Source of the DNA: Amphibacillus xylanus NBRC 15112
Lineage (GTDB): Bacteria; Bacillota; Bacilli; Bacillales; Amphibacillaceae
Assembly (NCBI RefSeq): GCF_000307165.1
Contig: NC_018704.1
Location: 930,001-994,000, forward strand
DNA: 64,000 nt
Direction of reading: 5' to 3'
Every line of letters begins with the position of its first letter. The first letter of the stretch is position 1. Shown in pieces: positions 13,333 to 31,145 of the stretch. The position numbers were made by a program, and so were the translations under genes. The notes beneath the pieces are model-generated. The model was not told the DNA's origin. It saw nothing but the letters and a program-made list of their open reading frames with translations, and did no database searches.

Positions 13333-13661
13333 AGTTCTATAATTTTTGGTGTTGGTGAGTTCTTTTTTCGAATTCGCTGGCACCTTTTTTGTGTTTCCAT
13401 AGTAAAAGGCCCATAGATTCCTTTAGAATTAAGTTGACGAAAAACAGCAGGTGAAATACACTCGCTTTCCGCGGGCACGGCTTTTAGCTAACTAAGGCAA
13501 GCAAAGATCGCTTGCCTTAGTGGATCTTCAGCTCGTGCAGTTCCCGCAGGAGTCTCGTGTATTTCACCTTTGATGAACAAGTTGTATCTTAATTAAACTT
13601 AATATAAATTTATTCCCGACTAAATATAAAACCTACCAACACTATTTGACATTGAACAAAA
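13333..13661. repeat. Dispersed non-coding element, copy A
   Basis: Three parts can be seen. A terminator-bearing left end (13337-13445) is nearly identical to the reverse complement of 22377-22485. The middle (13449-13569) is a 121-bp imperfect palindrome bounded by AGGTGAAATACAC and its inverse. The right tail (13570-13656) is shared with copies B and C, including AAAACCTACCAACACTAT. The ends GTGTTGGTGAGTT and the inverse of AACCTACCAACAC resemble short terminal inverted repeats. No protein is supported. It lies between convergent ytxH and the FtsA-like gene, which is now separated by an IS. Confidence 0.85.
13346..13392 (+). terminator. Terminator for ytxH supplied by element copy A
   Basis: GGTGTTGGTG can pair with CGCTGGCACC (several G-U pairs) across a T-rich loop, followed by six T residues. 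The same structure follows the PBP gene in copy B. Confidence 0.65.
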
Positions 13662-15349
13662 AATAATAAAAAAGAGGCTGGGACATAACCAGTCTTAGAT
13701 GAGAAAAATTGCGGAATCAACATTGAATTGTTGTTTCCGCAATTTCTATTTTGTTTTGGATTGTTAGGATTATTTTCATTTTGGATTTTGGCGGTATACT
13801 TTCTTAAGTTTACCGCCATTAAGGCAAATGCTAATTCATTTTCTACTTTCGATTTTCCTCTAACGGAAAATCGAGTGAACGACAAATTAGCCTTCAAGAA
13901 TCCAAAAACTGGTTCAACATCTATTTTGCGTTTTTTATAAATGTCTCCAGTTTCTTCTTCCGAAAGCTTAGTTCTTATATATTCTTTTTGCTCTTCCCAC
14001 TTTTTATTAATAAACAACCTTCGATTGTTCCCCTCTTTTGCTTTTGTGCAATGAGAGCGTAATGGACAATCATTACAATTTTCAGATTGATATACCCTAA
14101 ATTCCCTTGTAAATCCATAACGATCTGTACGATTAAAAAAGTACTGGAAAGTTAATTTTTGTCCGTTCGGACAAACGTAATAGTCATGCTCTCCATTGTA
14201 CTCCCAATTGTCCGTCTTAAATGGATCATTCTTATATTTTCTTTTCTGCTCTTTCCTATAACTGTTATATGTAATAAGAGGTGTCCGGTTGCGATTCTCT
14301 AAAACATCATGATAATTTTGTTCACTACCATATCCAGCATCAGCGACGATATAGTCAGGTAAATCAAAAAAGTGCTTTTCAATTTTATCTAAAAAAGGAA
14401 TGAATGTACGTGTATCCGTTGGATTTGGAAAAACATCGTAAGCAAGCGTGTATTGACCTTCTGTTGCGATTTGAACATTGTATCCAGGCTTCAATTGTCC
14501 ATTCCTCATATAGTCATCTTTCATACGCATAAAAGTAGCATCATGATCGGTTTTAGAATAACTGTTTCTTTCTCCAAATATATCCATATCTTGTGCGTAT
14601 TTCTTCTTTCGATCAATAAAGTCCTTTATTCGTTTCAATGCTTGCTTAGGAAACTTTCTCTCTGAACGAATTTTTTTACGTTCACTTCCAAGTTCACATT
14701 CCTCAATTTTCTTATTATAATCGTTCACCGTTTCTTCTAATCTTTCAGCTATTTCTTCAAGTTCAGTAATGGAAAGTTCGTCAGGACTTTCACGTTTAAT
14801 TTCCGGGATAATTTCTTTTTCAAGTAGCTCATCATATATTTTATTTGAGTTTTCGATTAACTTCTCACTATAATTTTTAACTGCTTTTTTCCATACAAAA
14901 GTAAATTTATTTGCATTAGCTTCAATTTTTGTTCCATCAATAAATATTGCATCATGATCGATGATTTTTTCTTCAACCAATTGACAGCGAAATTGGATGA
15001 ATAATTGTCGTAATAATTCTTGTACATCTGGATCGACTCGGAAACGATTGATTGTGCGATAACTTGGTTCATAACCTTGTGCAAGCCACATCATACGAAT
15101 ACTGTCTTTGAGGAGAGCTTCGATTTTCCTGCCGGAAAATACTGATTGAGAGTAAGCACATAATGTTATTTTTAACATCATTCGTGGATGATATGAAGGA
15201 CGACCTGTTTTTCGAAGAAAATTTTCAAAAGCTTCTTCAGGAATACTCTCTACTAAATCATTAATGACAAAAGCAATATCATTTTCCTGAAGTTTCACTT
15301 CCAAATCTATAGGCAAAACCAATTGATTCATGTTATAATTTTGATACAT
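13610..15349 (-). CDS. IS1182-family DDE transposase
   Basis: 579 residues from ATG 15349, which has GGAGGTG at 15356-15362; an in-frame GTG at 15358 overlaps that site. The N-terminal DUF772-like part has PSYHPRMMLKITLCAYSQSVFSGRKIE and MMWLAQGYEPSYRTINRFR. The catalytic core has IFIDGTKIEANANKFTFVWKK, VADAGYGSEQNY and, late, KRKIDVEPVFGFLKANLSFTRF with the final Glu. A Cys-rich CPNGQ / CNDCPLRSHC segment is typical. No in-frame stop occurs within the IS. The frame runs through the left inverted repeat and ends about 20 codons out, inside dispersed element A. It appears otherwise intact. Confidence 0.88.
   Translation of the reverse strand: MYQNYNMNQLVLPIDLEVKLQENDIAFVINDLVESIPEEAFENFLRKTGRPSYHPRMMLKITLCAYSQSVFSGRKIEALLKDSIRMMWLAQGYEPSYRTINRFRVDPDVQELLRQLFIQFRCQLVEEKIIDHDAIFIDGTKIEANANKFTFVWKKAVKNYSEKLIENSNKIYDELLEKEIIPEIKRESPDELSITELEEIAERLEETVNDYNKKIEECELGSERKKIRSERKFPKQALKRIKDFIDRKKKYAQDMDIFGERNSYSKTDHDATFMRMKDDYMRNGQLKPGYNVQIATEGQYTLAYDVFPNPTDTRTFIPFLDKIEKHFFDLPDYIVADAGYGSEQNYHDVLENRNRTPLITYNSYRKEQKRKYKNDPFKTDNWEYNGEHDYYVCPNGQKLTFQYFFNRTDRYGFTREFRVYQSENCNDCPLRSHCTKAKEGNNRRLFINKKWEEQKEYIRTKLSEEETGDIYKKRKIDVEPVFGFLKANLSFTRFSVRGKSKVENELAFALMAVNLRKYTAKIQNENNPNNPKQNRNCGNNNSMLIPQFFSSKTGYVPASFLLFFVQCQIVLVGFIFSRE
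13706..13745 (-). terminator. Hairpin with T-run inside the 3' part of the transposase frame
   Basis: AAATTGCGGAA pairs with TTCCGCAATTT, extended inward by AACA/TGTT. On the minus strand it is followed by a short T-run, so it looks like a terminator. It lies before the transposase stop codon. Confidence 0.6.
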
Positions 15350-15426
15350 AAAGGGCACCTCCGGTAGTTATTGTGTGGTACTTTAATTTTACCAAAAGGT
15401 GCTCTTTTTGTTGAATAAAATTATGT

Positions 15427-15566
15427 ATATTGACTGGAACGAAAGACATTTGACTCCAGCGGGAAAAGAACGTGTCCGAAGATCACTGTATCGACTCTGG
15501 AGGAGTCGATACAGAAGCTGAGGCCGTTCCCGCGGAAAGCAAATGTCTGAAGTGGAGGTCAATATT
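15427..15566. repeat. Large palindrome inside the IS, related to the dispersed elements
   Basis: The outer arms are ATATTGAC / GGTCAATAT and AGACATTTG / CAAATGTCT. The inner hairpin is CTGTATCGACT / AGTCGATACAG. Between these, GACTCC-GCGGGAA and GAAGATC on one side and GCTGA-GCCGT-CCCGCGGAAAG on the other match the arms of the palindromes at 13449-13569 and 30933-31052. It lies upstream of the transposase start. Confidence 0.8.
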
Positions 15567-15574
15567 TTTCATAA

Positions 15575-15615
15575 AACAACGGTGTACAGTCTTATACTGA
15601 ACACCGTTGTTATTT
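15575..15615 (-). terminator. Hairpin near the right end of the IS
   Basis: AACAACGGTGT pairs with ACACCGTTGTT over a 15-base loop. On the minus strand it is followed by TTTTAT, so it could stop transcription from the FtsA-like gene before it reaches the transposase. Confidence 0.6.
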
Positions 15616-15646
15616 TACTGGGTTTTGTCCCAGCCCCTTTTTTTTG

Positions 15647-22071: not shown

Positions 22072-22118
22072 AGAGCACTTAGCTGTCGGAGATCCGACGC
22101 TAAGTGCTCTGTTTTTTT
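22072..22118 (+). terminator. Strong terminator after motS
   Basis: The stem AGAGCACTTAGC (with one mismatch) then TCGG pairs with its inverse around a GATC-type loop, followed by seven T. Confidence 0.92.
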
Positions 22119-22129
22119 GCTTCAAAGTC

Positions 22130-22487
22130 AAGTATTGTTGGTAGGTTTTATAATTAGTCGAGAATAAATATATATTAGCTTTAATAAAGATACAACTTGT
22201 TCACCGCAGGTGAAATACACTCGCTTTCCACGGGCACGGCTTTTAGCTAACTAAGCAGTTTTCTCTTGCTTTCGTTCCTCTGTAACTGTAAGGGATCTAA
22301 CCCTTCCTCCTTAATATTAAATGTTTTTCGTATACAAAGAGCGTAGGCTATGTAGATTCTCCTTTAAATTGGTTTTCGTCAACTAAATTATAAAGGAATC
22401 TACTGGCCTTTTTCTATGGAAACACAAAAAAGGTGTCAGTGAATTCGAAAAAAGAACTCACCAACACCAAAAATTATAGAATCTGTT
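22130..22487. repeat. Dispersed non-coding element, copy B
   Basis: It is in the opposite orientation to copy A. The tail part (22131-22201, with TTGGTAGGTTTTATAATTAG) adjoins the motS terminator. One palindrome arm follows (22207-22257, AGGTGAAATACAC then CACGGGCACGGCTTTTAGCT). About 115 bases are not shared with the other copies and replace the second arm and inner hairpin. The terminator-bearing end (22377-22485) lies downstream of the PBP gene. No coding sequence is supported. It sits between convergent motS and pbp. Confidence 0.82.
22428..22476 (-). terminator. Terminator for the PBP gene supplied by element copy B
   Basis: On the minus strand GGTGTTGGTG pairs with CACTGACACC across a T-rich loop and is followed by TTTTTT. 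It is nearly identical to the terminator after ytxH. Confidence 0.65.
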
Positions 22488-25619: not shown

Positions 25620-25878
25620 TATATATTTTTTGCGATGAAGGAATCCAGTAGTTTTATTACCGCTACGTTTAAGAGAGCTGATGGTTGGTGTAAATCAGTG
25701 TAAGTAATAAAGCGAATTACAATTCTTGAGCTGTTTCTTTTATACATGGCATTTTACGGTATAAAAGACGGTACGGGGTGTACCGTTATCAAATAGAGTG
25801 GCAATTTATATTGCAACGAGGGTGGTACCGCGAGTAGATCTCGTCCCTTTTTTAGGGATGTGATCTACTTTTTTATTT
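25620..25878 (+). promoter_or_regulatory. T-box riboswitch controlling tyrS
   Basis: The T-box core GAGGGTGGTACCGCG lies at 25818-25832 and is followed by the terminator hairpin AGTAGATC / GATCTACT with a T-run (25833-25876). Stem I begins near 25672. A TAC triplet at 25718-25720 within GAATTACAA is the likely Tyr specifier codon. Uncharged tRNA-Tyr should stabilise the antiterminator and allow tyrS transcription. The gene downstream is tyrosyl-tRNA synthetase, which agrees. Confidence 0.92.
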
Positions 25879-25904: not shown

Positions 25905-27170
<1,266 letters not shown>

Positions 27171-30636: not shown

Positions 30637-31145
30637 ACAATATATAACGTTGGTGAGTTTGAAGACTTACTAACGTTATATTTTTATTTTAAGTATATTT
30701 AATTTAATTGCTCACGTTATAAATCGCAGTTAGCCGAACCACCGCGTTCCATGGACACGGCTTTTAGCTAACTCAGTTAAGAAAAGTCACATACGGTTAT
30801 CGTAATTTTTATAATTTCAAGAAATGAATTTTGATTCACCTCAAGTTTAAAGCAATAGAAACAAATTTGAGTAAAAAATGCAAATAGAAACACGATATGA
30901 AGCAGCCATTTAATTTAGAAGTGAAAAACAGCAGGTGAAATACACGAGACTCCTGCGGGAATAGCACGAGCTGAAGATCCACTAAGGCAAGCGCTCTTTG
31001 CTTGCCTTAGTTAGCTGAAGCCGTGCCCGCGGAAAGTGAGTGTATTTCACCTGCGGTGAACAAGTTGTATCTTTATTAAAACTAACATAAATCTATTCTC
31101 GACTAATTATAAAACCTACCAACACTATTTGACAATGAACCCAAA
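30637..31145. repeat. Dispersed non-coding element, copy C
   Basis: It starts with the hairpin at 30641-30690 and includes a degenerate half palindrome at 30741-30775 (GACACGGCTTTTAGCTAACT). A full 120-bp palindrome follows at 30933-31052, bounded by AGGTGAAATACAC and its inverse with inner stem CTAAGGCAAGC / GCTTGCCTTAG. It ends with the shared tail to AAAACCTACCAACAC near 31128. It is bracketed by 24-base inverted arms (30613-30636 and 31152-31175, 23 of 24 matching) that look like the two halves of a split terminator. No gene is supported. It lies between convergent dgcP and ytsP. Confidence 0.82.
30641..30690 (+). terminator. Hairpin after dgcP, left end of element copy C
   Basis: ATATAACGTTGGTGAGT pairs with ACTTACTAACGTTATAT, followed by a T-rich tail. 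The GTTGGTGAGTT core resembles the left end of copies A and B. Confidence 0.75.

Follow-up and report, generated by a model that had tools for sequence, protein, structure and literature searches.

The palindrome carried by an IS1182-family insertion sequence of Amphibacillus xylanus NBRC 15112 belongs to a large family of hairpin repeats of about 130 bases, present in hundreds of Bacillus-related genomes. Our preferred reading, to which we give a probability of roughly 60%, is that the family is REPIN-like and was probably spread by REP-associated tyrosine transposases (RAYTs), and that this copy is now passively copied within the IS1182 lineage of a genome without a RAYT.

The IS-borne palindrome and its non-coding relatives

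The window, i.e. the whole stretch of 64,000 nucleotides that was analysed, covers positions 930001-994000 of a single-contig genome of 2.57 Mb, and the coordinates of its features are collected in Table 1. Between the outer end of the IS1182-family element and the transposase lies a strong imperfect palindrome with a predicted folding energy of -63.6 kcal/mol, compared with -33.6 +/- 3.5 kcal/mol in shuffled sequences (z -8.5). It is enclosed by the outer arms TTGACTGGAACGAAAGACATTT / AAATGTCTGAAGTGGAGGTCAA; GAAGATC is the next element after the left core GACTCCAGCGGGA, and the inner hairpin is followed by GCTGAGGCCGTTCCCGCGGAAAGC, which ends at 15540. The initial annotation had proposed that this palindrome repeats the core order of non-coding copies elsewhere in the window with another inner hairpin and other outer arms, and both points were borne out: two non-coding copies have the core order in common with it and differ in inner and outer stems. 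The covariance model R1 was built from 89 class-2 palindromes, with the IS copy among the training sequences and both non-coding copies outside them; over the 64 kb it found exactly three sites, scoring 104.6 bits (IS copy), 64 bits (30925-31061) and 54 bits (13446-13571). The IS-borne palindrome represents another subtype within one broad family and is no mirror of the non-coding copies.

The assignment of the host element to IS1182 proved correct, since the reading frame matched the IS1182 transposase model NF033551 with 454 bits (cut-off 270) and inverted ends were found in three copies. Three full copies and one broken copy of the element occur in the genome. The full copies lie at different loci and are about 99.6% identical, and the palindrome is 100% identical in all three, so it moves with the IS. 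Within the IS, the transposase frame meets no stop codon and runs on into flanking DNA (window 13610-13674), its length differing among the three copies. Elsewhere in the window, a T-box leader (RF00230, 133.9 bits) occupies 25626-25851 (+), ahead of an open reading frame at 25908.

Table 1. Features of the window, and sites of one hairpin module at loci labelled L.
Feature	Position	Strand	Details
IS1182-family insertion sequence	13674..15636		transposase on -; ends GAGGCTGGGACATAAC (13674) / GGGTTTTGTCCCAGCCCC (to 15636)
Transposase reading frame	13610..15349	-	ATG at 15349; ends outside the IS, at 13610 (flanking DNA)
Transposase leader	15350..15410	-	GGAGG opposed by a complementary upstream stretch (RBS-sequestering arrangement); conserved in relatives
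Palindrome, class 2	15430..15566	+	outer arms TTGAYTGGARCG ... ARYGGAaRTCAA; GACTCC strand antisense to transposase
Left core, conserved	15452..15464	+	GACTCCAGCGGGA
Inner hairpin, variable	15486..15514	+	CTGTATCGACTC...GAGTCGATACAG
Right core, conserved	15528..15540	+	TCCCGCGGAAAGC
Terminator-like hairpin of IS	15577..15611	-	same place in 23 relatives without palindrome
Non-coding palindrome, type A	13446..13571	-	inner stem CTAAGGCAAGC; inside ISL3-like MITE
Non-coding palindrome, type A	30925..31061	+	
Half of type A palindrome and MITE flank	22114..22260	-	deleted derivative
Hairpin module TTTTCGGTGGGRCGAGTAAYCGCAGTCCCA	L038:1549, L040, L073, L114:1774, L296:1260, L320:1800		

A widespread intergenic repeat on several carriers

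With the family core defined as GACTCCNGCGGGA-N55-85-CCCGCGGAAAGC, matches were obtained in 117 of 159 genomes (40 of 46 genera) of the taxonomic family of the window and in 217 of 397 genomes (91 of 136 genera) of its order, with up to 148 copies per genome; the reversed pattern, used as the control, gave no hit in the same genome sets. Genera with matches include Oceanobacillus, Neobacillus, Peribacillus, Fictibacillus, Sporosarcina, Planococcus, Lysinibacillus and one Pisciglobus, and a single viral contig out of 2.9 million contained the core. Nearly all palindromes were intergenic (107/109), and the 103 sites placed relative to genes comprised 38 convergent, 60 tandem and 5 divergent contexts. 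Divergent promoters were thus avoided and convergent sites favoured, the pattern to be expected if the repeat is excluded from promoters. Palindromes in opposite orientation were sometimes separated by 100-250 bp, in the manner of BIME-like pairs (L136, L146, L155, L186 and L275). A literature search on repeats in Bacillus and on the core sequence itself returned no match, in a corpus mostly outside subscription papers.

The main copy types examined in the genus of the window sit in other transposons, namely IS1182, an ISL3-like MITE and a third MITE. In the genome of the window, type A lies in the ISL3-like MITE, with an 8-bp duplication AAAAAAAG at L032, and type B in another MITE with ends GAGTCAATTTCATAAT and 3-bp duplications in most copies. 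In other genomes, 23 of 118 palindromes were bracketed on both sides by matching inverted ends of four kinds (controls, 0). IS1182-type ends enclosed five of the 118, and MITEs of this sort were found in Evansella, Sporosarcina, Salibacterium and Alteribacter, one of them (L205) retaining the terminator hairpin. For the MITE ends seen most often (GGCTSTTTTCGTAAA...TTGTTG), no autonomous IS was present in the loci examined, where the units measured 100-800 bp and mostly 200-300 bp.

In the genome of the window, one IS110-family element (419 aa; NF033542) is present ten times (L063-L070, L072 and L073, e.g. L065:984-2607). All nine copies whose junctions were read are inserted at the same base of the type A core, after GCGGAAA, like REP-targeting IS elements; the IS110 guide matched its palindrome target over just 7 nt, which is uninformative.

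A probable passenger of IS1182

Twenty-three IS1182 relatives from other genera, aligned over the same interval, share an inverted end, a terminator-like hairpin with a T-run, an AT-rich spacer and a leader that opposes GGAGG. The palindrome of the window sits in the spacer of this common layout and is absent from all 23 aligned elements, which rules it out as a general part of IS1182. As a separate observation, the terminator-like hairpin and the leader complementary to the RBS are shared among the relatives (L080-L105) as if guarding against outside transcription. Among 29 relative loci scanned with the model, the palindrome was found at the IS in L104 alone, which comes from a congener, and a second hit, in L100, lay outside its IS; pattern and model scans of the relatives agreed except for L104.

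In all three genomes examined from the genus of the window, IS1182 carries a palindrome, and its place and orientation are the same in each. In the other two genomes the subtype is identical (inner stem TTATTGC) and comes with flanks of its own, subtype and flanks both being unlike those of the window. Two subtypes at one IS position therefore point to two insertions, or to one old insertion later exchanged, and the constant position and orientation could reflect either a role in the IS or a single old insertion.

It is unlikely, but worth weighing first among the alternatives, that the palindrome is a working part of the IS lineage, either insulating the transposase from outside transcription or forming a stem-loop that the transposase recognises. 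The constant placement in three congeneric genomes despite differing subtypes speaks for such a role, as do the palindrome-bearing IS1182-type MITEs of other genera, including the one at L205, and the report that IS1272, which belongs to the same transposase family as the IS of the window, replaces stem-loop targets (PMC5678879). However, the 23 aligned relatives possess terminator and leader but no palindrome, and the IS is present in as many as nine copies in several of their genomes. The suggestion of a transposase binding site accordingly found no support. A difference from IS1272 is that the palindrome lies inside the IS, not at its target, and is missing from relatives of other genera.

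Co-occurrence also argued against an IS1182-specific explanation of the family. By raw presence in 149 genomes, the palindrome occurred in 30 of 33 genomes with IS1182 and in 77 of 116 without it (p 0.0045), but palindrome number did not follow IS1182 within genera, where 723 of 2000 permutations reached the observed value. There are palindrome-rich genomes that lack IS1182 and, conversely, genomes rich in IS1182 that lack the palindrome. The proposed link between the non-coding palindromes and an IS family therefore stands in part: IS1182 ends recur as carriers, in MITEs and in three congeners, but the link is not specific to IS1182. Most likely, the palindrome in the window is a passenger of IS1182. 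A REPIN-like palindrome of about 130 nt would have inserted into the short spacer that separates leader and terminator-like hairpin in an IS1182 lineage, and would now be copied passively whenever its carrier transposes.

Pairing is conserved across the family

Covariation was analysed in 89 dereplicated class-2 copies against a named structure of 37 pairs. The pairs with the highest mutual information lay on the palindrome diagonals with Watson-Crick pairing mostly kept, and double (compensatory) changes were detected in 25 of the 37 pairs. Cells changed on both sides numbered 398, compared with 124 +/- 9 in shuffles and 59-79 with slid partners, and the covariation score was 0.333 versus about 0.05-0.09 with slid partners. 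The invariance of eight core pairs proves nothing, because the copies had been chosen by their core. Mismatched loops were conserved as well: GGA faces GGA around a helix of 2 bp with covarying pairs, and a tandem G.A alternates with Watson-Crick T-A/G-C at columns 61-62/105-106. The family is thus characterised by conserved arms, exchangeable inner and outer stems and conserved mismatched loops, in agreement with the earlier idea of a maintained structure with a replaceable inner stem.

Two further rearrangements were noted. The hairpin module listed in Table 1 is inserted into loops of different palindrome subtypes in four genomes of three genera, and in type B palindromes of L022, L023 and L025-L027 the right arm is swapped for a stretch of about 70 bp ending in ...CATCCTGTAGGCCC, with a similar insert in L320.

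A structured non-coding RNA travelling with mobile elements, a structured RNA being one role that the initial annotation had considered, would account for the strong compensatory changes, and a type A copy (window 30935-31050) aligned over its GACTCC / GGAAAGC arms with the Staphylococcus aureus sRNA tsr24 (RF02577). That match reached 26-30 bits, below the gathering score of 50, and the IS copy was unmatched; no Rfam family reached its gathering score for the palindrome. At mismatches flanked by Watson-Crick pairs, G.T was no commoner than A.C (82 versus 68 unique contexts, p 0.29), so there is no sign of one strand acting as RNA; a looser count on fixed columns (69 versus 42, p 0.013) was not reproduced by this unbiased count. 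Relative to tandem genes, no strand was preferred (34 versus 26). We consider an RNA role improbable.

Palindromes self-correct by template switching, and arm-to-arm correction of quasi-palindromes at replication forks could keep the pairing without selection in copies that are inert MITE debris, where many of them do sit, but the retention of mismatched loops (GGA/GGA and the alternating tandem G.A) and the RAYT association described below make this the least probable of the readings.

Palindrome number follows RAYT genes

A search for Y1 transposases showed, besides IS200, a weaker class that was identified as REP-associated tyrosine transposase (NF047646 over its cut-off, NCBIfam). Among the 149 genomes clearly covered by the searches, the palindrome was carried by 69 of 72 with a RAYT and by 38 of 77 without one (Fisher, 6e-11). 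Palindrome number followed RAYT within genera, with none of 2000 permutations reaching the observed value, the control for kinship being made at the level of genera. IS200, which has the same fold as RAYT, gave p 0.71, and 704 of 2000 permutations within genera. Thirty of the 36 genomes with at least 20 copies had a RAYT; the genome of the window is one of the other six, and the RAYT search detected none in its genus, despite the strong association over the 149 genomes.

The link between RAYT and palindrome is statistical. A REPtron arrangement, with the RAYT gene flanked by palindromes, was rejected (0 of 30 Y1/RAYT loci), no palindrome lying within 1.5 kb of these loci, and the alignment A1 contained no conserved GTAG or GTGG foot at the hairpin. 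In the preferred reading, the family most likely spread as single-stranded hairpin DNA through RAYT (TnpA-REP) Y1 transposases.

Relation to known repeats and implications

Several features recall the REPIN/RAYT systems of Pseudomonas and others, in which compensatory arms have been described (PMC3116915): high-copy intergenic palindromes, arms conserved around a spacer that keeps its pairing, and co-occurrence with low-copy RAYT genes. Unlike REPINs, the present palindromes are about 130 nt long and contain several conserved internal loops, have no GTAG foot, do not flank RAYT genes and occur in Bacillales, not Proteobacteria. The palindrome works like a long REPIN, with RAYT action putative, but the missing GTAG foot and RAYT genes that are not flanked by it keep it from being counted among the canonical members. 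A published classification lists RAYT-like subclasses without REPs, TnpA-Y1 2.1 and 2.3 (PMC6006769); the likeness to these lies in HUH/Y1 kinship with TnpA-REP and in a gene neighbourhood without REPs. Unlike in those subclasses, the gene here co-varies with a dispersed family of palindromes. The units also resemble bacterial MITEs such as RUP, Correia/NEMIS and bcr1 in being short and non-coding with inverted ends and internal hairpins, but differ in that one palindrome family occupies units with several unrelated inverted ends.

It is quite possible, if short of probable, that an undescribed RAYT-driven system operates in Bacillales, in which RAYTs would mobilise multi-loop palindromes of about 130 nt that lack a GTAG foot and are not found flanking the RAYT gene. 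The palindromes would in turn travel as cargo within IS1182, ISL3-like and other MITEs and serve as targets for an IS110 element. A repeat inside an IS need not belong to the IS, and the case of the window is a warning to that effect. A covariance model of the family would annotate thousands of intergenic sites that are at present unannotated. If such a system exists, some RAYTs regarded as lacking REPs would gain a substrate, and RAYT action on the palindromes, if real, would supply the agent behind an intergenic repeat that is very abundant in relatives of Bacillus.
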